Positions 1 through 19,205 of a stretch of 21,734 nt of DNA are shown one piece after another (positions within the stretch are counted from its first letter, which is position 1; each line of letters starts with the position of its first letter). The stretch spans positions 1 through 21,734 of the IMG/VR virus record IMGVR_UViG_3300009177_000126; one strand, 5' to 3'. A model generated the notes under the pieces. That model was not told the DNA's origin and did no database searches. It saw only the letters and a program-made list of their open reading frames with translations. Position numbers and translations under genes: made by a program. The stretch comes from a virus.

Positions 1-1077
1 GGAGTGGGGTCGACGCTGACGCATACGTTCGCGACGGCGATCGCTTCACCGGGCACGGAAGTCACTCGGTTCAAGTTCTACTTCGCCGTGCTCCCGACAA
101 GTGATGCCCAGATCTGCAACGTGTTGAACAGCACGGAGGGCGTGTTCTTCGACTCAACGACCGGGAAGATCGCGATGGGCAGTACGGGCTTCGTGACGTT
201 CCGCGGTCCGACGATCAACGCCAATCAGGTGTACGAGGTGTGCTTCCTGCAAACCAGGGACAACGGCCCCAACCTTCGCAGGTTGACCGTCGACGGAGTC
301 GAGTACGGGAATGCTGGCTCTGCCGGTGTCGCGTCGGGTGGTACGGGGATCACTATTGGCAACATCAGCGGTCGGGTGTGCGATCTCTACATGGATGACA
401 TCATTACGTCGGCTGTTGGTGGCGACTACCCGATCCCGAGTGGCATCGTCGCGGGGCTCTATCCGAATGGCGACAAGCCGAACGCGTCGGCCAACCCATC
501 CAACGACAGCATCGGCCACTTCTTCTCGGCAACGACTGACTTCGGGAAGGGAACGGGCGGTGCGACCGCGACGGGTGCGCAGAACGTCGAGAGCACGACG
601 TGGCAGTCGCTCAACAAGCCGATCCCCGTCACCACGCCGACGACGTGGGTTGCGAACCTCTTGGGTTCCGTCAGCGAATACTTGGTGTGGACCCTTGAAG
701 ACCTGCCTGCCGGAGCGCAGGCCATCAACGGCGTGATGGCCGTCGCATCAACGCACTCGGCGGCAGCGACCGCGAACGAGTTCGGGCTCCTACAGGTGCA
801 GGACACCATCGGGCAGGTCGGTGCAACTTTCGGTGTGATCGACCTGTCGGAGATCACGCCGACCATTCCCGTCGTGATCGTGGCTACCGCGCCGAACAGC
901 GTCCCGTGGAGTGTCGCGAACGTCAACTCGTCGCTCCTTCGATGGGGCAACAGCAGTGACGTGAACCCGGACCCATATCTCGATGGTGCGTGTCTAGAGG
1001 TCGACTACGTGCCGACACCACCCGCCACTGCACCACCGCTGAAAGTTGATCCATACCGCCAGTTGCTCAATCACTAG
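1..1077 (+). CDS. Lectin-fold / jelly-roll virion surface protein, 5' partial
   Basis: The reading frame is open from the first base, so the visible 357 residues after the GTG at 4 are probably the C-terminal part of a longer protein. Residues ~10-150 read like a concanavalin-A/LamG-like beta-sandwich: alternating strands, 'FKFYFAVLP', then 'VYEVCFLQ', 'LTVDGVEYGN' and 'DLYMDDI', a pattern common in phage and actinobacterial surface proteins. Residues ~165-335 form a second beta domain ending 'NPDPYLDGACLEVDYV', typical of phage virion modules. A Pro-rich linker and short tail follow. No catalytic residues are recognisable. It probably binds a carbohydrate or forms part of a head or tail appendage. 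It leads a tightly packed run of four genes ending at the portal gene, with 9 bases before the next start. Fold class is moderately sure; exact role unknown. Confidence 0.7.
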   Translation, partial: GVGSTLTHTFATAIASPGTEVTRFKFYFAVLPTSDAQICNVLNSTEGVFFDSTTGKIAMGSTGFVTFRGPTINANQVYEVCFLQTRDNGPNLRRLTVDGVEYGNAGSAGVASGGTGITIGNISGRVCDLYMDDIITSAVGGDYPIPSGIVAGLYPNGDKPNASANPSNDSIGHFFSATTDFGKGTGGATATGAQNVESTTWQSLNKPIPVTTPTTWVANLLGSVSEYLVWTLEDLPAGAQAINGVMAVASTHSAAATANEFGLLQVQDTIGQVGATFGVIDLSEITPTIPVVIVATAPNSVPWSVANVNSSLLRWGNSSDVNPDPYLDGACLEVDYVPTPPATAPPLKVDPYRQLLNH

Positions 1078-1086
1078 GGAGAAACC

Positions 1087-1584
1087 ATGCAACTCGACAC
1101 GTATACGGTGCCGATGCTGAACCAGACCATCGTCGGCGATGCGACCCTGGTGATCATCCACACCCCGACTTCTGGTGTGGCAGCAGGCAGCCACATTGAA
1201 ATCCTGCGGGCCTCGGTCTCACAAATGACCAGTGCAACCAGTCAGCAGCTTGGCGTGATCGTCGGAACCAAGGCCACTGCGTTCGGCACGTACACCGCAA
1301 CGACTCCGGTGCCCACCACACCAGGAACTAGCGCCAGTGGTATCACCGGGGGCACCGCTGGAGCAGCGGGTACCGCAGGCACCGACGCCACTGCCGAAGG
1401 TGCCGGTACTGTCACGCCAATGTTTGAAGAGGGCTTCAACAACCTCAGCGGTTGGCTCTGGATTCCCACCGAGGAGGAGCGCCCGCTCCTACTGAATGAC
1501 CAGGCGTTTATTTTGAAGCTCGTAGGCACGCCTACTACGCTCACCAACTGGAACGCCCACGTCACGTACCAAGAGCGGGTCTAA
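1087..1584 (+). CDS. Small beta-rich virion protein with Gly/Ala/Thr linker
   Basis: A 165-residue protein starting at ATG 1087 behind an AGGGAGA ribosome site. Residues 1-70 and ~115-165 look like beta-sandwich halves; the second contains 'GWLWIPTEEERPLL' and ends 'NAHVTYQERV'. The halves are separated at ~75-110 by a low-complexity Gly/Ala/Thr stretch that looks disordered or loop-like. I recall proteins of similar shape ('W.PTPEE.P', then a strand ending in '.EE') beside structural genes of actinophages, where they are usually hypothetical virion proteins. There is no signal peptide or membrane segment. The stop overlaps the next start by one base (TAATG), so translation is probably coupled to the repeat protein. 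It may be a trimeric decoration or appendage subunit; this is inference. Confidence 0.65.
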   Translation: MQLDTYTVPMLNQTIVGDATLVIIHTPTSGVAAGSHIEILRASVSQMTSATSQQLGVIVGTKATAFGTYTATTPVPTTPGTSASGITGGTAGAAGTAGTDATAEGAGTVTPMFEEGFNNLSGWLWIPTEEERPLLLNDQAFILKLVGTPTTLTNWNAHVTYQERV

Positions 1585-3875
1585 TGCCTAGAGGGCTGTA
1601 CGTACATCAGCAGGTTATTCAGCAACGTCGTCAGTACGTTCCTGCTGCTGTCGCGGCCCCTGGTGTCGTTACCTTTTCTTGCAAGATGGCCACGGCTACC
1701 AGTGCCAAGATAGTTCCTGGTCTCACCACCTTCTCAGATTCGTTCAGCCGGGCCAACTCGACCACGACGCTCGGCACGACGGATACCGGGCAGACGTGGA
1801 CGGCGAGCGGTACGTGGGGTATCGACACCAACCGCGCCTACTGGGTGAGCGGTCCCGGCGACAACCAGGCGACCGCAACGGTCGAGACGGGACTGTCGGA
1901 CTGCATCGTCAGCGTGACAGTTGCAGTGAAGGGGGCGCTGTTTGAGGGACCGATCTGTTTCCGCGAAGTCGACGTCAACAACCACTACGTCGTCGGCTCC
2001 GTGAGCGGCAATGCCTGGGCGATCTACCAGCGGACAGCGGGCACCTATTCGGCACCACTGGCGTCGGGTGGAGTCTTCCCTCCGTTCGATGGCGACGTCA
2101 TCACGGTCGAACTGTCGGGCGGCAACATCGTCGTGAAGCAAAACGGCGTGCAGGTGGTCGCGTACTTCTCGGCGGTCTATCAAACGGCGACCCGACACGG
2201 GCTGCGGGCATACGGCCTAGCGACGAACGGCACCCGGCTCGACAACTTCTCGGTAGTAGGCGGCAGCACCACTGGACGCGGGTTCGATGTCAAACGTGGG
2301 TTCGTAGCTAAAGCCGCTACCGCTACCAGTGCCAAGGGCACACGGGTCAACCGCACCCAGCGGTTCACAGCGAAGCTGAACACTGCCAACAGCGCCAAGG
2401 CGACACGCATCAACCGAGTCCAGCGGTACACCGCCAAGATGGCCACCGCTAACTCCATGAAGGAAACGTTCTTCAACCGTGTGGTGCGCATCACGGCCAA
2501 GGTGCCAACAGCTACCAGCGCCAAAGCAACAAAGCTCAATCAGCTCAAGCGGTTCACTGCCAAGGCCGCTACCGCTACCAGTGCCAAGGAAAATATCTGG
2601 GTTAGCCGCAGCGACCGAACTACGCAGATCAATGTTGCGACCAGTGCCAAGGTCACACGTCTGAACCGTGTGCGCCCGGTAACCGTCAAGATGGCGACGG
2701 CTACCAACATGAAAGCCACGCTGAGCAAGATCAAGCTGTTCAGCGCCAAAATGCCGACGGCCACTAGCGCCAAGGCCACCCGTATCAACCGGACAGTCGC
2801 TCTCGGCGGGATGAAGGCCAATATCGCTAGTAGTGCCAAGGCCACGAAGCTGAATCAGCAAAAACGCTTTGTAGCCAAACTTCCTACCGCTAGCAGTACC
2901 AAAGCCACCCAACTGAACCGGTTGAGAGCGTTCACAGCTAAGGCACCCAGTGCCAGCAGCATGAAGGCTGCCCTGAGCAAGGGTGGCGTCAAGGACTTCA
3001 TTTGGAAGTCGCCGACTGCTGCCAACATGAAGGCGACGGCCAAGGTCGCTCGCCCGCTGACAGTGAAGTTCTCAACTGCTGCCAGCATGAAGGCGACCAT
3101 GCGGGTAGCTCGCCCGATGGTGGCCAAGGCAGCAACGGCGACCAGTAGCAAGGCCACTCGTATTCAGCGGCTTCGGCCATTTGCAGGAAAAATAAATACG
3201 GCGAATTCAGCCAAAGCCACTCGGCTGAACAGGTTTGAGCGTCTGTCGGCCAAGGTGCCTACCGCCACCTCCATGAAAGAATCGTTGCAGGCGACACGGC
3301 GGTACACGGCCAAAGCACCGACAGCTACCAGCGCCAAGGCCAACCTCACTGCTGCCGGACAGAACATTGTTGCCTTCAGTTGCAAGATGCCCACCGCCTG
3401 CAATATGAAACCGACCGTGCGTGTGGCTAGGCGCTACGTGGCCAAGCTGCCCACAGCTACCAGCAGCAAGGCAACGATTCTCAGCCGTAGCAAACTGCTG
3501 ACGGTGAAGATGAACACTGCTACCAGTAGCAAGGCTACCTCGCTGCGTAGAACTCGTGCGGTGACGGTCAAGTTCAGTTCTGCTCAAAGTATGAAGGTCA
3601 CCAAGCTGCGGCTGTTGCTCCGGCTTGTTGCCAAGCTGCCCACCGCCACCAGCGTCAAAGCAAACCTCGGGCGCAAGCAAGTGCTTATCGTCAAGATGCC
3701 CATCAGCACCTACATGCGGGCAGACTTCACCGGGCGCACCGTACCGCCGCTTGAGATATTTGTTTCTGTCATTGATGGGATGGGGATCGAAGCCATTGAA
3801 GGCTTGGGTGTTACTGTGCTGGACAGTCTTGGGATAGAGTGCGCACCAGTTGATGTGGAGGCACAGATAACATGA
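1584..3875 (+). CDS. Large basic repeat protein with embedded lectin-fold domain (putative fibre/appendage)
   Basis: 763 residues. Residues 28-42 hold one copy of a motif (K-x-x-T-A-T-S-A-K). Residues ~49-226 form a concanavalin/LamG-like domain with the signatures 'DSFSRANSTTTLGTTDTGQ' and 'LDNFSV'. Residues 243-718 are 23 head-to-tail copies of a 20-24 residue unit (mostly 21) with core K-x-x-[TS]-A-[TNS]-[SN]-[AMS]-K-[AEG]-T, usually followed by a basic 'RLNR..R' segment and an aromatic-Thr/Val-Ala strand. Residues 719-763 are an acidic, hydrophobic tail with 'GMGIEAIEGLGVTVLDSLGIE'. The array has only about seven acidic residues against roughly five Lys/Arg per unit, so it is extremely basic. 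A regular short period rich in Thr/Ala/Ser suggests a beta-solenoid or fibre shaft; this is inference. It overlaps the previous stop by one base and the next start by four (ATGA), so coupled expression is likely. Not a recognised enzyme. Confidence 0.75.
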   Translation: MPRGLYVHQQVIQQRRQYVPAAVAAPGVVTFSCKMATATSAKIVPGLTTFSDSFSRANSTTTLGTTDTGQTWTASGTWGIDTNRAYWVSGPGDNQATATVETGLSDCIVSVTVAVKGALFEGPICFREVDVNNHYVVGSVSGNAWAIYQRTAGTYSAPLASGGVFPPFDGDVITVELSGGNIVVKQNGVQVVAYFSAVYQTATRHGLRAYGLATNGTRLDNFSVVGGSTTGRGFDVKRGFVAKAATATSAKGTRVNRTQRFTAKLNTANSAKATRINRVQRYTAKMATANSMKETFFNRVVRITAKVPTATSAKATKLNQLKRFTAKAATATSAKENIWVSRSDRTTQINVATSAKVTRLNRVRPVTVKMATATNMKATLSKIKLFSAKMPTATSAKATRINRTVALGGMKANIASSAKATKLNQQKRFVAKLPTASSTKATQLNRLRAFTAKAPSASSMKAALSKGGVKDFIWKSPTAANMKATAKVARPLTVKFSTAASMKATMRVARPMVAKAATATSSKATRIQRLRPFAGKINTANSAKATRLNRFERLSAKVPTATSMKESLQATRRYTAKAPTATSAKANLTAAGQNIVAFSCKMPTACNMKPTVRVARRYVAKLPTATSSKATILSRSKLLTVKMNTATSSKATSLRRTRAVTVKFSSAQSMKVTKLRLLLRLVAKLPTATSVKANLGRKQVLIVKMPISTYMRADFTGRTVPPLEIFVSVIDGMGIEAIEGLGVTVLDSLGIECAPVDVEAQIT
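1665..1709 (+). repeat. Isolated first copy of the basic motif, before the lectin-fold domain
   Basis: Residues 28-42 of the repeat protein ('VVTFSCKMATATSAK') match the tandem unit found after the lectin-fold domain. They most resemble the unit near residues 597-608, which also carries 'FSCKMPTA'. The lectin-fold domain therefore sits between copy 1 and copies 2-24. Confidence 0.8.
2310..3737 (+). repeat. 23 tandem ~63-base coding repeats (20-24 residue unit)
   Basis: Unit starts (the Lys before x-x-T-A-T-S) fall at residues 243, 264, 285, 306, 327, 348, 369, 389, 411, 432, 453, 475, 495, 515, 536, 557, 577, 601, 621, 642, 663, 684 and 704. The period is 21 with small deviations (20, 22 and one of 24). 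Protein similarity is strong, but most units differ at the DNA level. One exact 25-base match pairs 2313-2337 with 2565-2589, exactly four units apart. There are no unique spacers, so this is a protein repeat and not a CRISPR array. Confidence 0.9.
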
Positions 3876-4207
3876 AAACGATTGAGGTCCAATCCTCTAG
3901 TAAGGAATATGTGCGGGCAGCGGTAGCAGCCACCCGAGACGACGTCCTCAGCGGCACGCCTGCGTTTGCCTTCAACACTGAGCAGAACGACGACGGCCTC
4001 ACCTTTACTGCCGGAACCTGGCTGAGCAACGAGAAATCTATTGAGCTGGTGGACGATCGCTACCAGGAGGCGTACATCGCCCAGGCGCTCGTCGGTCCTG
4101 GTACCCCGAACGCACTTGCTACCGGCACGACCTACTTCATGTACGTGCGGGTTTCTATGGGCGCACAAGTACCTGTACGCCTAGCTGGAAAGGTGAAGGT
4201 GCTCTGA
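3872..4207 (+). CDS. Small beta-type virion protein upstream of portal (hypothetical)
   Basis: A 111-residue protein whose ATG overlaps the repeat-protein stop by four bases. The layout is typical of small actinophage virion proteins I recall: a strand around 'VRAAVAAT', a 'P.FAF' segment (51 residues in total up to 'GTWLSNEKSIEL'), then 'YIAQALVGPG', a short loop, and 'LATGTTYFMYVRVSMGAQVPVRLAGKV'. The VGPG..L..G.Y..YVRV order reads as paired strands of an Ig-like beta-sandwich. No signal, membrane or catalytic motif is visible. Its stop overlaps the portal start by one base (TGATG), so it is probably co-translated with the portal gene. Candidate roles are an appendage base or a decoration subunit partnering the repeat protein. 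The function is unknown. Confidence 0.7.
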   Translation: MKTIEVQSSSKEYVRAAVAATRDDVLSGTPAFAFNTEQNDDGLTFTAGTWLSNEKSIELVDDRYQEAYIAQALVGPGTPNALATGTTYFMYVRVSMGAQVPVRLAGKVKVL

Positions 4208-5889
4208 TGCCCACTTGGCGTGAAAAGGTAGAGATCTCTGACCCGTGGTCGTTCTATGACTACAAGGAATCGTTCTACAACCGTGGCACCGGGCAGCTAC
4301 CAACGTGGGCTCCTCCCAACTGGGTCGGTGACCATGCCCGCAGGCTGGCGGCGTACCACCTGCTGGACGACTACTGCAAGAACCGCAGCCGTGCATGGAT
4401 GTCCAGTGACCTGGACGACGAGGACCGTAAGGACTACAGGGAATACGGCGACCCTGCCATGCTGGTCAACAACATCACCAGCAGCATCGTGGGTGACAGC
4501 CAAACCATCAAGGTTGAAGGCTTGCAGGACGAAGCTGACGTCGGTGGTCCCAGGACAGCACTACAAGACACCCTCAACGAGTGGGCACAGCAGGAACGCT
4601 TCTACCTGAAGGTGCTGCACAATGAAAAGACTGCCGTCAAGCTGGGCGACTGCTGCTACGTCATCGGCTGGGACGCCAAGAATCTGCGTCCTCGGGTTCG
4701 TGTGTATGACCCAGGGTTTTACTTCCCGGTACTGGACGATTGGTCCCACGACGAGGACTACCCTCGCAAGGTACACATCGCCTGGGAGTACGAGCGCCCC
4801 GACACCAATGGCAAGAAGCGCAGCTACCTGCGTCGGCTGACGTGGTGGCTGGCCGAAGGGGCACCGCAGTCATTGCCTTGGAATCCTCTACCGGCCACTG
4901 ACCACTGCTGGTTCGAAGAACTTGAGTGGGTGATGGATGACGTCAAGGCTGCCGTGGCTGACCTCAGCGACGCCAACGCACTTGAAGTCACACCGGCACA
5001 GGACTTGGGCATTGACTTCCTGCCGGTGATTCACATCCCCAACACCATCAATGAGACAGAACACTATGGGGACAGCAGCCTGGGTGTGGTCATGCAAGCA
5101 CTGGACGATCTCAGTAGTGTCACCACAGATCTCCAGGCAGCAGCGGCTACCACTGGCAGCCCGCCGCTGGGCTTGGACGATGCCGACGTGCCTCGCAGCG
5201 AGGACGGTGAGATCACCACCTACGGCCCTGGCCAAGTGTTCGCAGGGAAGGTCACACTGGTCGACACCTCCCGTAGCCTGGACGCCCTACTGAAACTAGA
5301 AGAGTCGGTGCAGGACAGGGTGGCGACCAACGCTCGCACCCCGAACACATTGACGGGCCGCATCGACCCCGAGAAGGTCAACAGCGGCATTATCCTCACG
5401 CTGAGCTTCCAGCCTCACGCCAACATGATTCGTGAGATGCGTCTGGTCCGCAAGGACAAGCACGACCTGCTGTTGAAGTTCGTCATCCGCTACATGATCC
5501 AAGGCGGCATCGTACCTGCCTACTACCCCACCCACCTAGAATATGGCAGCTACCTGCCGAGCGACCGACAGGAGATCAGCAGCATTGTCACCGCTGGTAT
5601 GCAGAACCACAGCATGTCGGTGCAGACTGCCGTGGACATGATGGTGCAGGCGGGGTACCCCATCGAGGATGCGCAGATGGAAGTGCTGTTGATTCAGCAA
5701 CAGAACTTCGATGCTGCCAGCAAGGCGCTCGATGCCACCGGAGACATCAACTTCAGCCGGAGCCTGCTGGGGCTGCCACCCATTGAGGAAGACCTGCTAG
5801 GAGGCCCGGAGACTAACGGTGCAGGCGAGGTAAACGTAGGAGATCTGACCGAAGCACAGATACCACCGGCACCAGAGCTACCGGTCTAG
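4207..5889 (+). CDS. Portal protein
   Basis: 560 residues, in the usual size range of SPP1 gp6-like portals. Portals form the dodecameric ring at one capsid vertex, through which DNA is packaged and to which the connector and tail attach. The N-terminal part (~residues 40-110) shows the helical 'LLDDYCKNRSRAW' region and then 'MLVNNITSSIVGDSQTIKVEGL', matching the family's wing start. The middle has the beta-rich wing ('RPRVRVYDPGFYFPVLDD', 'HIAWEYERPD'). Residues ~285-350 ('GDSSLGVVMQALDDLSSVTTDLQ', then 'TTGSPPLGL') match the conserved stem/clip region. The Gln/Asp-rich C-terminus is probably the crown. The start overlaps the previous stop by one base. Position directly before scaffold, decoration and capsid genes supports the call. 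The terminase genes expected nearby must lie outside the window. Confidence 0.92.
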   Translation: MPTWREKVEISDPWSFYDYKESFYNRGTGQLPTWAPPNWVGDHARRLAAYHLLDDYCKNRSRAWMSSDLDDEDRKDYREYGDPAMLVNNITSSIVGDSQTIKVEGLQDEADVGGPRTALQDTLNEWAQQERFYLKVLHNEKTAVKLGDCCYVIGWDAKNLRPRVRVYDPGFYFPVLDDWSHDEDYPRKVHIAWEYERPDTNGKKRSYLRRLTWWLAEGAPQSLPWNPLPATDHCWFEELEWVMDDVKAAVADLSDANALEVTPAQDLGIDFLPVIHIPNTINETEHYGDSSLGVVMQALDDLSSVTTDLQAAAATTGSPPLGLDDADVPRSEDGEITTYGPGQVFAGKVTLVDTSRSLDALLKLEESVQDRVATNARTPNTLTGRIDPEKVNSGIILTLSFQPHANMIREMRLVRKDKHDLLLKFVIRYMIQGGIVPAYYPTHLEYGSYLPSDRQEISSIVTAGMQNHSMSVQTAVDMMVQAGYPIEDAQMEVLLIQQQNFDAASKALDATGDINFSRSLLGLPPIEEDLLGGPETNGAGEVNVGDLTEAQIPPAPELPV

Positions 5890-8895: not shown

Positions 8896-11730
8896 ATGCC
8901 TCAGGCGGCAGAAGACCTCGCGGAGGATATGTACTACCGTTTTATAGAAGAGCAAGCCGAACTCGTTAATATCCAAAGAAGATTGATAGAGAGAGCCACC
9001 CTCGTCCAGTCCCTGCCCAAAGCCATGCTGACGAGCCAGGGACCGGCGGAAATCACTCGACGTATGCAAGTGCTGCAACGCATCACTCGGCAATACTTCG
9101 CCAAAGACTTCGACCCTATCTACCTGGCTGGTGCTCGCAAGGTTGATCCCACTTTTGCCATCGGGGCGGCAGATCGTAGTTTCCTGGCGAAGCTGAATCT
9201 CCAGGAGTACCAGAAGCTCACTGCTGCCATGCGTAACGTGCGAAACGAATCCAGGCGCTTCGCCGAGATGGTGTGGAACGACAGGCAGGACCGCCGCAAG
9301 AAGCTGGGCATCAAGTACACCCACGTTGATTTCGTCAACGCCAAGCCACTGCCAGATGAACTCACGGGGCTCACTCCTCGTGGGGTCATGGCGATCCTGG
9401 CGAAGAACCCCAGCACCGGACGGGACAACAGTGCTCGCACCATCAGGCTGCGTGGCATCAAGGCAATACAGTTCCGCCCCGGTATGCGTGTTGACCCTGG
9501 TCACGAGGGACGAATCAAGTTCGACAAGGTGGGTAAGAAGTACACCCTCGGTGACTACGGCAGTATGGTCGTGAAAACGAATGCGAGCCGTGCGTACAAC
9601 ATGGGCACCCTTGCAGCTATCAAGCGTAAGGGGTTGAAATACGTCAGCGTTACTGATGGCCCCGAGTGTGGCTGGACAGCCCACGGCGATGGTGACCTGG
9701 CCAACGGCAAGGTCGTCACCATTGAAGAGGCCAGGGCCTACCCCATTGCCCACCCCAACTGTAAACGTGCGTTTCATCCTGCCTCCCCCGAGGACACCAG
9801 ACGAGAAGAGGAAAAACGAGCCCGAGAGGCAGCAGCAGGAAAGATCCTCGGGGAGACAGCTACGCAACGGGCACTCCGCATTGGTGTTCTGTCTGCCACC
9901 GGACTGCTGACGGCAGCGGCAGCCACCAACATCGGTGAGGCTGGCTTCACTCGCTTCGTTTCTAGTCAGTTCTTTAATAAGATCGTGGAGCGTGCTGCGG
10001 CGGTGGCGCTGAAGGGTGACCGCATCGCTACCGTTACCTTGCAGCGGCTGAACCGCTTGGCCGACTTGGTTGAAGTTGGAGGCGAGAAGGTACTCGCCAG
10101 CGTGACGCCCATTTATCCTAACGGGCCGACCAGCCTCCCAAGCGTTCCTATACTGGACCAAGTTCGGTATGCCGGGGAACGATTTATTCAAGAGCCATAC
10201 ATTCGAACGACAGAGTTCGTCAAGACTGTTGGCGGAGGTATCTCTAAGGAGATCAAGACAGCCATTGGAGCACTAGACGAAACTATAGAGGACAAGATTG
10301 GGGATAAGTTCCAAGCTGCCTACCACGTGGCCAAGCGCGTAGCAATGTCCGAGGACACGGGCGAGAACCTCAAGCGCGTCATAGACATGGAAGCCAAGCG
10401 CCGAGGCATGTTCGAACGTGTGATGGACAAGCTGCCCGGTAAGCCTGAGATCCGTGCTAGCTGGTCACGGTGGGGGCCACGAGCCGTTATTGATCTCACA
10501 AGCTGGGTGCGAGCCAAGGTCACTGCCACACCTACCGGGCTTATCCGTACACTGGCAGTGAAGCCAGCGGGTGCAGTGCGTGGTGTGTTCAAGATGTACC
10601 AGGACGGTACGCTGGGCGGCCACATCAGTGTCATCCCGAAGAACTTTGCCCGAGGTATCTTCCGTGCCATCGTAGAAGTTGATGAGCAGGGTCACCTCGT
10701 TGGCAACCTGCGCCTGGTGCCTGGCGGTCCGCTACGACTGCGGCTGGAGTTTGTTACCGACGCCGTCAAGCAAGACCTCAAGGACTTCACCATCAGTCCT
10801 ATCGGCGCAGCAGCCAACTTGGCCGAGCAGGCAAGAAAATTCAAGTTCAACCGTGCGGTGCTCGAGCTGAGAATCTTCAACCAGTCAGCATTTGAAGTTG
10901 CTGCCAATCTGCGTCTACCGGTGAGTGATATCAAGCGAGCTATCAACGCGGCCAAAGAGGTTGGCAAGGTCGTCGAGGCAGCAGGTGCCAACAAGTACAC
11001 CGGCACCATCACTCATTTCATCCGGAACCCAGAATTTGTGAAAAAAATATTTGGCAAATCTAAGTCCAGTGTGTTCGGTAATATCAAGTTCAGTAACTTG
11101 ACCAAGCAAGCACTAGAGCAGAGCAAGCTGCTGGAAATAGCCAAGGGGCTAAACGTTCGCCTGCTCACCAAGGCACAGCTCACCAGCAAGGGGCTGCAAG
11201 CTATCGCCACCAACATGCGGCTGCATGGGTGGATCGTCTACGACATCGGCAACGTGCTCAAGCTGCGCTGGCGAGACGTACAGGTTCTCATCAACAATGG
11301 CATGGCCCGTACTGTCAGATTCATGGAGGACCTGGGGGTCCGTAAGCCGGAAGACCTACTGCCCGTCTGGCGAGAGCGGGTGGCACAGGCGCAGTTGATC
11401 GTACGACGCAGCCCAGTGGCAGCCAGGGGCTACGGGGTCAACGTGGCGGAAACAATCAAGCGGGCACTGGAACCTATCTACCTGGGAGCAACGCCAGGAC
11501 AGGCCAACCGCTATCAGATTCGTGCCCTGCAAACCTTGATCGGCAGCAAGTCCGGGGACACCGTAGAACAAACATACAACAAGCTACGAAATATGATCAA
11601 CTTTCTGCGAGATCAGGAGTGGGTGGAAGGCAACTACATCCAGGGCTACGCCGACGGCATCACTGAGGCCATGATGCGAGCAATCGCCAAGGACCTGACC
11701 AGCCGCAGGCGTACGCTCAGAGTGGTGTAA
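8896..11730 (+). CDS. MuF-type minor head protein with giant C-terminal extension
   Basis: 944 residues, about three times the usual MuF core. ATG 8896 directly abuts the previous TAG. Residues ~1-310 match the family (phage minor capsid / SPP1 gp7-like): helical N-terminus, 'FDKVGKKYTLGDYGSMVVKT', 'NASRAYNMGTLAAIKRKG', then the signature 'TDGPECGWTAHGDGD' and 'EARAYPIAHPNCKRAFHP', with C258, H263, H286 and C289 as likely metal or structural residues. MuF proteins are internal head proteins near the portal and may enter the cell with the DNA. Residues ~311-944 are an extension I do not recognise: a charged helix (AAAGKILGE), a moderately hydrophobic Ala-rich segment near 327-345, amphipathic helices, a beta-rich stretch near 560-615 and a basic helical C-terminus. 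Known MuF proteins can carry C-terminal toxin domains, but no toxin active site is visible. Several stretches look lower in GC than neighbouring genes. Confidence 0.85.
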   Translation: MPQAAEDLAEDMYYRFIEEQAELVNIQRRLIERATLVQSLPKAMLTSQGPAEITRRMQVLQRITRQYFAKDFDPIYLAGARKVDPTFAIGAADRSFLAKLNLQEYQKLTAAMRNVRNESRRFAEMVWNDRQDRRKKLGIKYTHVDFVNAKPLPDELTGLTPRGVMAILAKNPSTGRDNSARTIRLRGIKAIQFRPGMRVDPGHEGRIKFDKVGKKYTLGDYGSMVVKTNASRAYNMGTLAAIKRKGLKYVSVTDGPECGWTAHGDGDLANGKVVTIEEARAYPIAHPNCKRAFHPASPEDTRREEEKRAREAAAGKILGETATQRALRIGVLSATGLLTAAAATNIGEAGFTRFVSSQFFNKIVERAAAVALKGDRIATVTLQRLNRLADLVEVGGEKVLASVTPIYPNGPTSLPSVPILDQVRYAGERFIQEPYIRTTEFVKTVGGGISKEIKTAIGALDETIEDKIGDKFQAAYHVAKRVAMSEDTGENLKRVIDMEAKRRGMFERVMDKLPGKPEIRASWSRWGPRAVIDLTSWVRAKVTATPTGLIRTLAVKPAGAVRGVFKMYQDGTLGGHISVIPKNFARGIFRAIVEVDEQGHLVGNLRLVPGGPLRLRLEFVTDAVKQDLKDFTISPIGAAANLAEQARKFKFNRAVLELRIFNQSAFEVAANLRLPVSDIKRAINAAKEVGKVVEAAGANKYTGTITHFIRNPEFVKKIFGKSKSSVFGNIKFSNLTKQALEQSKLLEIAKGLNVRLLTKAQLTSKGLQAIATNMRLHGWIVYDIGNVLKLRWRDVQVLINNGMARTVRFMEDLGVRKPEDLLPVWRERVAQAQLIVRRSPVAARGYGVNVAETIKRALEPIYLGATPGQANRYQIRALQTLIGSKSGDTVEQTYNKLRNMINFLRDQEWVEGNYIQGYADGITEAMMRAIAKDLTSRRRTLRVV

Positions 11731-14788: not shown

Positions 14789-15123
14789 GGAGTGATGCGG
14801 TCTTCAAGTTGGAGATGGACTACTGCGCTCCAATAGGACTGCCTCACTCCAAGTTTCTCAGTTGGAACCCTGATGACCAGGACAAAGCGATGGCTTGGGT
14901 CGTGGAAAGTCGTCGCGCCTGTCACCAGTGTGGTACCGTCTCAGATGAATGGCTTGACGAAGAGGGTAGAGACCGGGAACCCCCTCCATTCGTCGCCAAG
15001 AGTCGCTACTGCGCAGGGTGCCACGCAATCAGGCAGCTCTCAGAGGAGATCCCGGAGGATAGAAAGTCCTTCACTCACATTTATCTTGAGCCGTGGAGCG
15101 AGGAATGGGATCTCAGCTCGTAA
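14782..15123 (+). CDS. Tail assembly chaperone, frameshift extension (T part of GT)
   Basis: This -1 frame segment has no good start of its own and is reached by slippage at G_GGA_AAC. The fused GT product would be residues 1-183 of the short chaperone plus 113 residues, 296 in all. The segment opens 'RLRSDAVFKLEMDYCAPIGL' and continues 'PHSKFLSWNPDDQDKAMAW', a recognisable actinophage T-segment pattern ('D.....E.DYCAPLGIPHS.FL.W...D..KAL.W'). Two CxxC pairs follow (C230/C233 and C260/C263 in the fusion), suggesting a zinc ribbon. In the lambda model the T part contacts tube subunits while the G part coats the tape measure. Its last 19 bases overlap the tape-measure start. Confidence 0.85.
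   Translation, partial: RLRSDAVFKLEMDYCAPIGLPHSKFLSWNPDDQDKAMAWVVESRRACHQCGTVSDEWLDEEGRDREPPPFVAKSRYCAGCHAIRQLSEEIPEDRKSFTHIYLEPWSEEWDLSS
15095..15098 (+). promoter_or_regulatory. Ribosome binding site deciding the tape-measure start
   Basis: GGAG lies 6 bases before ATG 15105. The alternative in-frame GTG 15093 lies before this site and has no clear site of its own, so ATG 15105 is preferred. Confidence 0.55.
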
Positions 15124-18100
15124 AGATCGCACTACAGGCAGATGTCGGCGGGTTTGTTAGCGGGTTCAGTCAAGCCGAAGGTGCAGTCGGTAAGTTCGGT
15201 GCGACCCTCAGTGGTCTGACCCGTATCGGTGGTGCTGTCGGCAGTGCGATCGACGCTGTAGCTGAAAAGGCCAGAACCTTTGCCAAGCACGTTGCGGCAG
15301 GAGGCATAGCCGGTACAGCGTTCTTTGGTGGCTTAGGTATCGCTGCTGCACAGCTTGAAGTTCCTATGAGGAACGTTCAGACCCTGATGGGTAAGGGGTT
15401 TGGTGAGAAGCAGTTCCAGCAGATGACGCAAGACATCATCAACATGAGCCGCCGCTTGCCGCAATCAGCAGTCGAGCTGGCGAACGGCATGTACGACATT
15501 GCCTCGTCAGGGTTCGCTGGCGCAGAGGGAATGAAGATCCTAGACGTCAGTGCTACGGCTGCCGTCGCCGGTCTCACCAGTACGAAGAACGCCAGCACCG
15601 CTGTCACCGCAGCCCTGAATGCTTACGGTAAGGGCGCAAGTGCTGCCGGAGACATGTCAGACATCCTGTTCCAAACTGTGAACTTGGGTGTCGTCAGCTT
15701 CGAGCAGTTAACGGGCGTCATCGGTGACGCCGTTGGTACCGCTGCTGCTGCCAAGGTGAACTTCGCCGAGGTGGGCAGCGCCATCGCCACCATGACCCGT
15801 AGCGGTATCAGCGCCGAAGAATCTGGCACCAGCCTGAACCGCTTGCTGCAAAGCATCATCGACCCCAGCGATGCGCTAGCCGGTGCCATCCGTGGCCTGG
15901 GCTACGAATCTGGTGCTACTGCCTTGGAGCAGGACGGCCTGCGCAAGGTCATGATGAAACTGATGGAGGCCAGCAAGGGCAACATCGGCGTCCTATTGCA
16001 ATGGTTCCCAGAGATCCGTGCTGCTCGTGGCGCACTGGCCCTCATGGCCAACGAGGGCAGGACCTACAACGAAGTAGCAGCAGGCATTGAGGACAAGAAC
16101 AAGCGTGCCGGTGCCAGCCAGCGGGCCTTCGCCATCCAGAGCCAGTCAGCAGTGGCAGAGTTCAAGCTGTTCATCAACAGCCTCAAGGCTGCCGGTATGG
16201 AGATCGGTCAATACTTCCTGCCAGCGGCCAAGCTGATTATCTCTGCTGCTACTTCTATCACCAACGTGTTCGGCAGTATGTCCGCTCCCATGAAGCAGGT
16301 CATAGCATGGGCTGGACTGCTGGGCAGTGCGCTGACCGCACTAGGCGGTATCTTCCTGGCATGGCGCTTGAAGACCGCCGTGATGAATGTGGCCCTGCAA
16401 GGCATCGGTGCCGGGTTTAAGGCAGTAGGAGAAAGGTCTGCCGGAGCAGGCGGCATGCTGAGCCAGTTTGGAACTAGGCTCTCCAACACGCAGGGGCCGT
16501 TCGGTATCACCCGAGCCGTGCTCGGCAGCACCTTCGATTTGTTCGGTAGGTTTGGTGAATCCGTTGGCAGGGCTGGCAACAGGATCACTGAGTTCGGCGG
16601 TCACATGGGTCGGGGCGGAGGGCTCGTCTCCGGCTTCGGCAATACCCTCAAACGAGCCGAAGGTGCCAGCCATGCACTGGCTGGAGGCTTGGGCGCAGTA
16701 GGCAAGGCTGCCTCTTCACTGGTGGGCATCCTGCCTGCGGCGGCAGCGGTGGGCATGGCATTGTTCAGTGCCTTCCAGCAGGGCAAGGCTTCCGCTGACG
16801 CCATGGCTGAAAGCCTCACCAAGAACATGAACGAGAAGGACCCCGTCAGCCTTGTAAAGAACTACGACAAGGTGCGGGCAAAGCTGGACGACGTAAACAA
16901 AGCTCTTGAAAAGCCGCATCAAGGTGGCATCTTCGATCAGATCGTCGAAAGCGCCAAGCAAGCCGCAGTCAACATTGCGGACGAGACCACCAACATCGTC
17001 GGCATTGACGCCATCGATACATCGTCGTGGGACAGACAGTTCCAGCTAGATTCTCTGAACAAGACAGAGAAGAAGATCGTCAACACCATGCACAACATCT
17101 CCAAGAACGCCACCGAAGTGTTCAACACCATGCACCCAGAAGCTGCACTGGGCCACGGCAAGATGCTAGGACTGGACAGCCAAGAGCTGATCTACATCGC
17201 CAGGGTGGCCGAGACCACCGGTGTTGACCTCACCAAGGCGTTCAGCAAGTCGGGGCCAGAGCGGCAGAAGGCTATGCAAGAAATCCAAAAGATGACTGGC
17301 TTCATGGGGGATATGGGGAATACTGGCACCGCCGTCAGTGCTGCGATGGTGCAGCAGTACGCCGCTATGGCCAAGGCAGCCGACAAAGCTGCCGAAGGAG
17401 CGGCCAAGGCATTCACCAAGAGCTTCGATTTGTTCAAGTCAGTCGACCCTAGCAAGACGTTCGGCCAGATGCTGGGTGGGGAAGATACCACTCTGGTTCC
17501 AATGCAAGCTCAGATCGCAAACTTCTACGCAACATCGCTTGAGACGGCAAGGAAGTTCTACGACGGTATCAGTGAGATGCAGAAGCGTGGTGCCGATCCT
17601 TCTGTCATCCAAAAGATGTTGCAAGCTGGCCCCGAAGCTGCCGGGGCAGTAGTGCAGGCGGCAGTGGAAGACACCACCAACGCGACGATCCAAGTTCTTA
17701 ATGCCGGTGAGTCTGCGCTACGACAGTTCAGCCAGCGTGCAGCAGAAATCGCTCGCCTGACACAAGCAGCCATCAGCGACCCCACCGATAAGAAAGTGCA
17801 GCAGCTTGGCGATGCAATACAGATCGCCAACGAGAAGATGACGCAAGGCGGCTTGGCCACTACTGAGTCTGTTGCGAAAGCCCTGCACATGGACCCCGCC
17901 AGCGTCAATGAAATCGCACATAACTTCGGTATGGGGCTGCGAGGTGCCATCAAACCAGAAGAAATCTTCAAGGGGTTCATCACCGAAGGCGAGTCTGGCC
18001 CGGTCAGTCAGTTCCAAACGCACCTGCTGGGTGTTGTTGACGCCATGCGGCAGTTCACTGGTACGCAGCCTGAGACCATCATCAGTTTGGCTAAGGGTCT

Positions 18101-19205
18101 TGGCAAAGTCCTGAACATGCCCGACGTCACGCCTGGTGAACTAGCCAAAAAGCGTGAGGCTATCGAAAAGCTGTACAACCAAGCGGCAGAAATCCCTGGT
18201 CAACAAGACAAAACCATCACGTTCAAGATCCTCGGTGACGAGATCGCCAAGGACAGAATGCGGGACGTACTTAACGCAGCCTTTGGTCCTGGCCGTGAAA
18301 ACCAAGGGGCCAGAGGTCTCACCGCACAGCAGATAGATTTCATTGTCGGTTTGCAGGGCGACGCAGAGGCCATTGCGAAAATCGGAGCTATCTCAGCGGC
18401 ACTAAACCTGACCCCACACGAACACGCCGTCATGCTGCGAGCACTGGGCACCGAAGAGGCCATCCACCAAGCAAATCTGCTGGACGCAGCTATCGAAGTG
18501 CTGCACGGTAAGAACCTACCCATCACCGCCGATGCCGTACAAGCGATTATCGCCAGTGGTGAGGCGCAAGACCACATTGACGGTGTGGAGCAAAAGAGCG
18601 TTCCCGGTATCGCAGCAGATCCTACTGCTGCCCAGCAAGGGGCGAGGGATGCACAGGCTGCCATCGACTCAATCCAAGGGAAAAATGTACCGGTAACTGT
18701 TTCCGTTACTCTCACCGGAGAGCAGCTCGCGGTAGACACATATCGTGGTCAGGTTCTTGCCGGTGGCGGTAGTGCCGCTCGTGCGTATGCCTCTGCCTAT
18801 GGAAGCCTCTGGAAGGATGGTGTTCAGGCATTTGCACAGGGCGGGATGATTGGCGATGGTAAGAAAGCCATCCTGTGGAACGAGCCTGGCACCGGAGGCG
18901 AGTCCTACATTCCCTGGGCCATGGACCGCAGAGACCGAGCTACCGAGATTCTTCAGCGTACCGCAGAGGCGTTCGGCTACTCACTGGTGCGTGGCAGTGT
19001 CAAGGCGTACGCAGGTGGCGGTATGCAATATCCCGCCCAGTCAAGCACGGCATGGACCCCTGCCAGTACGACCATCGCCACCACCATTCAGTTCAATGCG
19101 CCCATCTACGGAGACAGCGGTTTGCAAAACCACATTCAGAACGCCTTCGATGAGCATGACCGCCAACTCAGCATTAGGCTCCGTCAGAACAGAGGAGGCC
19201 GGTAG
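15105..19205 (+). CDS. Tape measure protein (TP901-type)
   Basis: 1366 residues from ATG 15105, the longest gene here. Tape measures span the tail lumen, set its length and help DNA entry. Residues ~80-270 carry the TP901-family core: 'EVPMRNVQTLMGKGFGEK', 'ELANGMYDIASSGFAGAEGM', 'AVAGLTSTKNASTAVTAALN', and the helix ending 'GTSLNRLLQSIIDPS'. Hydrophobic segments occur near residues 66-83, 399-423 and 536-557, typical of this family and possibly membrane-inserting at ejection. The middle is long and helical. Residues ~1230-1300 have the common C-terminal motif 'FAQGGMIGDGKKAILWNEPG' followed by 'GGESYIPWAMDRRDRATEIL', and the protein ends with 'FNAPIYGDSGLQNHIQNAFD' and a basic helix. At about 0.15 nm per residue the tail would be near 200 nm. 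No peptidase or lysozyme motif was noticed. Confidence 0.93.
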   Translation: MGSQLVKIALQADVGGFVSGFSQAEGAVGKFGATLSGLTRIGGAVGSAIDAVAEKARTFAKHVAAGGIAGTAFFGGLGIAAAQLEVPMRNVQTLMGKGFGEKQFQQMTQDIINMSRRLPQSAVELANGMYDIASSGFAGAEGMKILDVSATAAVAGLTSTKNASTAVTAALNAYGKGASAAGDMSDILFQTVNLGVVSFEQLTGVIGDAVGTAAAAKVNFAEVGSAIATMTRSGISAEESGTSLNRLLQSIIDPSDALAGAIRGLGYESGATALEQDGLRKVMMKLMEASKGNIGVLLQWFPEIRAARGALALMANEGRTYNEVAAGIEDKNKRAGASQRAFAIQSQSAVAEFKLFINSLKAAGMEIGQYFLPAAKLIISAATSITNVFGSMSAPMKQVIAWAGLLGSALTALGGIFLAWRLKTAVMNVALQGIGAGFKAVGERSAGAGGMLSQFGTRLSNTQGPFGITRAVLGSTFDLFGRFGESVGRAGNRITEFGGHMGRGGGLVSGFGNTLKRAEGASHALAGGLGAVGKAASSLVGILPAAAAVGMALFSAFQQGKASADAMAESLTKNMNEKDPVSLVKNYDKVRAKLDDVNKALEKPHQGGIFDQIVESAKQAAVNIADETTNIVGIDAIDTSSWDRQFQLDSLNKTEKKIVNTMHNISKNATEVFNTMHPEAALGHGKMLGLDSQELIYIARVAETTGVDLTKAFSKSGPERQKAMQEIQKMTGFMGDMGNTGTAVSAAMVQQYAAMAKAADKAAEGAAKAFTKSFDLFKSVDPSKTFGQMLGGEDTTLVPMQAQIANFYATSLETARKFYDGISEMQKRGADPSVIQKMLQAGPEAAGAVVQAAVEDTTNATIQVLNAGESALRQFSQRAAEIARLTQAAISDPTDKKVQQLGDAIQIANEKMTQGGLATTESVAKALHMDPASVNEIAHNFGMGLRGAIKPEEIFKGFITEGESGPVSQFQTHLLGVVDAMRQFTGTQPETIISLAKGLGKVLNMPDVTPGELAKKREAIEKLYNQAAEIPGQQDKTITFKILGDEIAKDRMRDVLNAAFGPGRENQGARGLTAQQIDFIVGLQGDAEAIAKIGAISAALNLTPHEHAVMLRALGTEEAIHQANLLDAAIEVLHGKNLPITADAVQAIIASGEAQDHIDGVEQKSVPGIAADPTAAQQGARDAQAAIDSIQGKNVPVTVSVTLTGEQLAVDTYRGQVLAGGGSAARAYASAYGSLWKDGVQAFAQGGMIGDGKKAILWNEPGTGGESYIPWAMDRRDRATEILQRTAEAFGYSLVRGSVKAYAGGGMQYPAQSSTAWTPASTTIATTIQFNAPIYGDSGLQNHIQNAFDEHDRQLSIRLRQNRGGR

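Follow-up and report, generated by a model that had tools for sequence, protein, structure and literature searches.

Gene context and layout of the repeat protein

A 763-residue repeat protein is encoded by an open reading frame that occupies exactly positions 1584..3875 (+) of the window, that is, of the whole 21,734-nt stretch of viral DNA analysed here. Its start codon begins within the stop codon of the gene before it (TAATG), and its 3′ end overlaps the following start (ATGA). Overlaps of this kind continue to the portal gene, which indicates that the repeat gene and its neighbours, portal included, are probably co-translated. Four genes lie 5′ of portal, and the group that contains the repeat gene is followed by portal, scaffold, decoration, capsid, head-tail, major tail and tape-measure genes in that order. 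The principal features are:

1..1077, +, upstream gene of at least 357 aa, truncated at the contig start; no family match, assigned to the cassette by position only
1087..1584, +, 165-aa gene coupled to the repeat gene; no family match
1584..1670, +, N-terminal segment of the repeat protein, aa 1-29; pLDDT ~27 in the full-length model
1671..1709, +, isolated repeat copy 1, TFSCKMATATSAK, aa 30-42; unit HMM
1719..2267, +, predicted concanavalin/CBM66-like jellyroll domain, aa 46-228; tblastn, Foldseek and VIA
2298..3746, +, 23 basic units of ~21 aa, aa 239-721; self-comparison and unit HMM
3747..3872, +, acidic C-terminal tail, aa 722-763; composition
3872..4207, +, 111-aa gene coupled on both sides, to the repeat gene and to portal; no family match
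4207..5889, +, portal protein; phrog_64, E 4e-9, and 33.7% to Streptomyces phage ZL12
7106..8140, +, major capsid protein, Phage_cap_E; E 7.6e-29
15093..19205, +, tape measure protein; context

The window phage is uncultivated and is probably a siphovirus, and its host is probably an actinobacterium. No terminase is present in the contig; the gene is either displaced or located beyond the contig start. An earlier note on this DNA described the repeat correctly but overlooked both the jellyroll, which is inserted between copies 1 and 2, and the acidic C-terminus. The N-terminal segment (aa 1-29) would be a possible virion anchor. Further downstream, positions 8896-11730 encode a 944-aa minor-head-like protein whose family match spans only about aa 209-327 and leaves a long C-terminal portion outside it.

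The basic repeat array and its occurrence

A unit HMM recovered 24 copies (aa 30-42 and aa 239-721) at spacings of 20-24 residues with a mode of 21, in agreement with the 23 tandem copies, the isolated copy and the period given in the earlier note. Self-comparison of aa 236-720 gave an identity of 0.276 at lag 21 and 0.233 at lag 42, against a maximum of 0.148 at any lag over 500 shuffles. The same region contains 57 Lys, 43 Arg, 3 Asp and 4 Glu residues, which amounts to a pI of ~12 and a net charge of ~+93 over 485 residues. The acidic count matches the approximately seven residues previously noted, while the measured 4.3 Lys/Arg per unit is slightly lower than the five that had been estimated.

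The unit consensus is [R]-[F/Y/L]-T-A-K-x-[P/A]-T-A-T-S-[A/M]-K-A-T-..., in which Lys, Ala and Lys are near-invariant. Two near-invariant basic positions are found in each unit, eight residues apart: Lys occupies core position 0 in 23/24 copies, and 24/24 have Lys or Arg at position 8. These are flanked by hydrophobic residues at -3, -1 and +1 and at 7 and 9, an alternation that two short β-strands would show if their basic residues pointed outward. Tandem Repeats Finder detected no DNA-level repeat over the array, codon usage is mixed at the conserved Lys, Ala, Thr and Ser positions, and comparison between units gives a median dN of 0.56 versus a dS of 1.83, thus indicating that the array is old and has been kept by selection on the protein sequence. 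The isolated copy (1674-1688) and unit 18 (3375-3389) both start with FSCKM, in which Cys precedes the Lys, and each is preceded by a spacer, as if the array started afresh with its second part.

Comparison of the array with Pfam, PHROG and NCBIfam profiles returned weak matches only, and no relative was found among PDB sequences. Triple β-spiral shafts have a repeat of ~15 residues with a conserved Gly/Pro turn; this class was rejected on the basis of the 21-residue period and the near-invariant Lys, Ala and Lys. A collagen-like fibre was likewise rejected, as the unit columns contain no Gly-X-Y.

A second phage with the array, L015 (IMG/VR 3300045944_000062), encodes a protein of 365 aa in which the window repeat type occurs as 13 units. 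The gene sits between terminase and portal, separated from terminase by a phrog_240 'head protein' gene. The capsid of this phage differs from that of the window phage, and a search of it with the window portal gave no match. In this genome of 67% GC, many Lys residues are replaced by Arg, which largely takes the place of the Lys of the window array, yet positions 0 and 8 remain basic in 13/13 and 12/13 units, respectively. Charge is therefore a conserved trait of the array. The L015 protein lacks the jellyroll and has a different C-terminal domain with tryptophan-rich WNGxAW-type repeats. Each of the two arrays includes one 24-residue unit. No sequence kinship was found between the small neighbour genes of the window and the small genes of L015. 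Between the L015 repeat gene and portal, an LtfC-like ORF overlaps a short collagen-like ORF (L015:3652-4388, -); a frameshift may have divided a single gene into these two.

Searches of IMG/VR with four different probes revealed no array beyond those of the window and L015, and DNA pattern scans of IMG/VR for the core gave chance matches only, L015 excepted. An exact pattern for the core also gave only chance matches in 84,980 species genomes. A profile search of 396 actinobacterial genomes found no array; the same profile recovers L015, whose units it includes. Among cultured phages, tblastn with the array returned nothing even at E 10, a weak negative because the low-complexity filter probably masks the array, and blastn returned marginal, chance-like matches only. 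The array may be commoner than it appears, since divergent members are missed by exact-pattern scans.

The jellyroll domain and the fibre locus

Analysis of aa 46-228 by tblastn against cultured phages revealed matches to parts of two tail proteins, Gordonia phage Barco gp31, a 'minor tail protein', and Arthrobacter phage Persistence gp31; the region also resembles the C-terminus of a fibre-like (tail-fibre) protein in a faecal phage. Foldseek against the PDB returned CBM66 (E 2e-5) and galectin-like lectins. The CBM66 of Bacillus subtilis and galectin/ERGIC-53-like lectins have the same jellyroll fold, with ~16% identity. The top-ranked VIA match among solved structures was the C-terminal domain of the central fibre protein gp20 of mycobacteriophage Douge (residues 689-878; Z 15.5 over 170 aligned residues, rmsd 3.2-3.3), and the receptor-binding domain of TM4 gp23 was matched with Z 13.6. 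Where named, matches among viral structure models were mostly minor tail and tail-fibre proteins. The predicted structure thus shows aa 46-228 as a lectin-like jellyroll with the fold of a known receptor-binding domain.

In Douge, the central-fibre tip and C-terminal domain (CFP-tip-CTD) binds the mycobacterial surface and fragments of LAM/AM and α-glucan, with receptor binding read from glycan arrays (PMC13033339). The C-terminal domain of Douge gp20 (8ZDP/8ZDQ) and aa 46-228 have a common fold, and the fibre role would be alike. The Douge domain is located at the fibre end on a different stem, whereas in the window protein the domain lies between repeat copies and the remainder is the cationic array. 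The same jellyroll occurs six times, after a collagen-like start, in a 1701-aa protein at another locus (L087:1874-6976). The gene before it (L087:3-1496) encodes about ten 20-residue repeats of TATATWxExxxxxGKK type, for which homology to the array was looked for and not found.

Related phages, defined here as loci with a 57-63% identical capsid protein, provide a view of the same locus. In all eight relatives in which the junction is visible (L089-L093 and L095-L097), terminase directly abuts portal (0-50 bp), and the repeat gene is present at this junction in none of them. Instead, fibre-type genes are found 5′ of terminase: FnIII and β-helix spike genes in L010, a collagen-like tail fibre in L092, and in L090 a 1518-aa protein with many neutral 22-residue repeats of the TPVAATATVRAVTINTTAV type (L090:734-5287). 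This is a variable fibre locus, and in the window it is occupied by the repeat gene. Collagen-like phage tail fibres (phrog_366, phrog_5073) have a repetitive shaft, found at this locus in L092, but are built of Gly-X-Y, which the window array lacks.

The L090 protein is a long Ala/Thr-rich repeat array beside terminase, in the same locus group as the window array. Its repeats are almost uncharged (K 0.7%, R 3%), whereas the window array is strongly basic, and profile comparison found no homology between the two. The loose similarity to 'TATS' repeats of other phage proteins that the earlier note mentioned was not upheld as homology: related phages have neutral TATS/TATV-like repeats, and these showed no relation to the array in profile comparison. 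The L090 repeats are broken by a non-repeat stretch of ~280 residues, and the N-terminus of the L090 protein showed no significant homology to the jellyroll. The earlier proposal of a fibre in a structural operon is supported by the jellyroll match to the Douge fibre, the translational coupling to the portal gene and the fibre genes of relatives at this locus.

Proposed role of the repeat protein

We propose that the gene product is probably a virion-surface fibre for adsorption (receptor binding), in which a lectin-like jellyroll is combined with a polycationic β-rich shaft. The units would build a long shaft with two strands each, and in each strand the conserved Lys/Arg would point outward and its hydrophobic neighbours inward, so that two ladders of positive charge would run along the shaft. 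Specific binding to a sugar on the host surface would fall to the jellyroll, and the shaft would provide a charge-based hold on anionic wall polymers such as teichoic acid and phosphorylated or uronic-acid glycans. The phage could thereby be retained and scan along the surface ahead of irreversible attachment. A grip on anionic polymers is plausible from the sequence because charge is kept through the Lys-to-Arg change in L015. Arabinogalactan, which the earlier note had named as a ligand, is not itself a strong polyanion. We infer that the fibre is on the tail rather than the head, as we do its oligomer state and ligand.

Two rivals to an adsorption fibre of this kind are the strongest: a fibre on the head, and a cationic tether that is disordered. 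The first would place the same adhesive protein on the capsid or portal vertex instead of the tail tip. The coupling of the repeat gene to the portal gene, ahead of the scaffold, decoration and capsid genes, is consistent with such a location, as is the phrog_240 gene between terminase and the repeat gene in L015. The capsid protein of Douge also bears glycan-binding domains (PMC13033339). However, in relatives this locus carries genes for a tail spike or a collagen-like tail fibre, and the jellyroll is of a type usual in minor tail proteins. We regard a head fibre as unlikely.

The second rival concerns the structure of the array. In a full-length AlphaFold2 model (pLDDT ~50 over the array), nearly every unit has one strand spanning -3 to 0 and another spanning 7 to 11, and four units modelled alone are coil (pLDDT 43); a VIA search with this low-confidence four-unit model gave no matches and was uninformative. 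These models are weakly consistent with the regular β-rich shaft suggested earlier, with two strands per unit, but are not confident enough to show a solenoid or a trimer. If the array were instead an intrinsically disordered polycationic tether, it could make loose multivalent contacts with the wall or pack other virion parts. The four-unit coil fits this possibility, as do the scarcity of large hydrophobic residues and a borderline charge-hydropathy value, marginally on the disordered side of the Uversky line (0.471 vs 0.482). Disorder is harder to reconcile with the near-constant unit spacing of 20-22 residues, the regular alternation of hydrophobic and basic positions, the selection evident from dN<dS and the strands that the full-length model places in most units. 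A tether seems to us about as improbable as a head fibre, and we infer that the array would form a β-rich shaft. It is very improbable that the protein serves to condense phage DNA, as a basic DNA-binding or ejected protein to which the jellyroll would be incidental: extreme net positive charge and the conservation of Lys/Arg as charge would suit this role, but the array is fused to a fibre-type lectin-like domain in a fibre locus, and Pfam, PHROG and NCBIfam searches matched no nucleic-acid-binding family.

Within the adsorption-fibre interpretation, the jellyroll fold and the idea of a repetitive fibre are already known, and it is the repeat that matches no described family. The array could, as a tentative and somewhat doubtful proposal, represent a new class of phage shaft: a regular β fibre with two outward basic residues per turn, whose charge ladders would hold polyanionic wall polymers non-specifically. 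It would be a cassette that moves between capsid types at the terminase-portal interval and replaces neutral shafts. If the adsorption-fibre interpretation is right, a specific sugar-binding domain is coupled to a long electrostatic grip, an adsorption mode that is rarely visible from sequence alone. Comparable loci of different phages carry neutral or cationic repeat proteins, so that comparison of these natural variants could test how charge acts in the first contact with Gram-positive or actinobacterial walls.

The C-terminus of the repeat protein (about aa 721-763) contains eight acidic and no basic residues. This tail could partially neutralize the charge of the array, and it might either bind the array within the fibre or anchor the fibre. 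Three eight-residue near-repeats, IDGMGIEA, IEGLGVTV and LDSLGIEC, are found within it (3747-3872).
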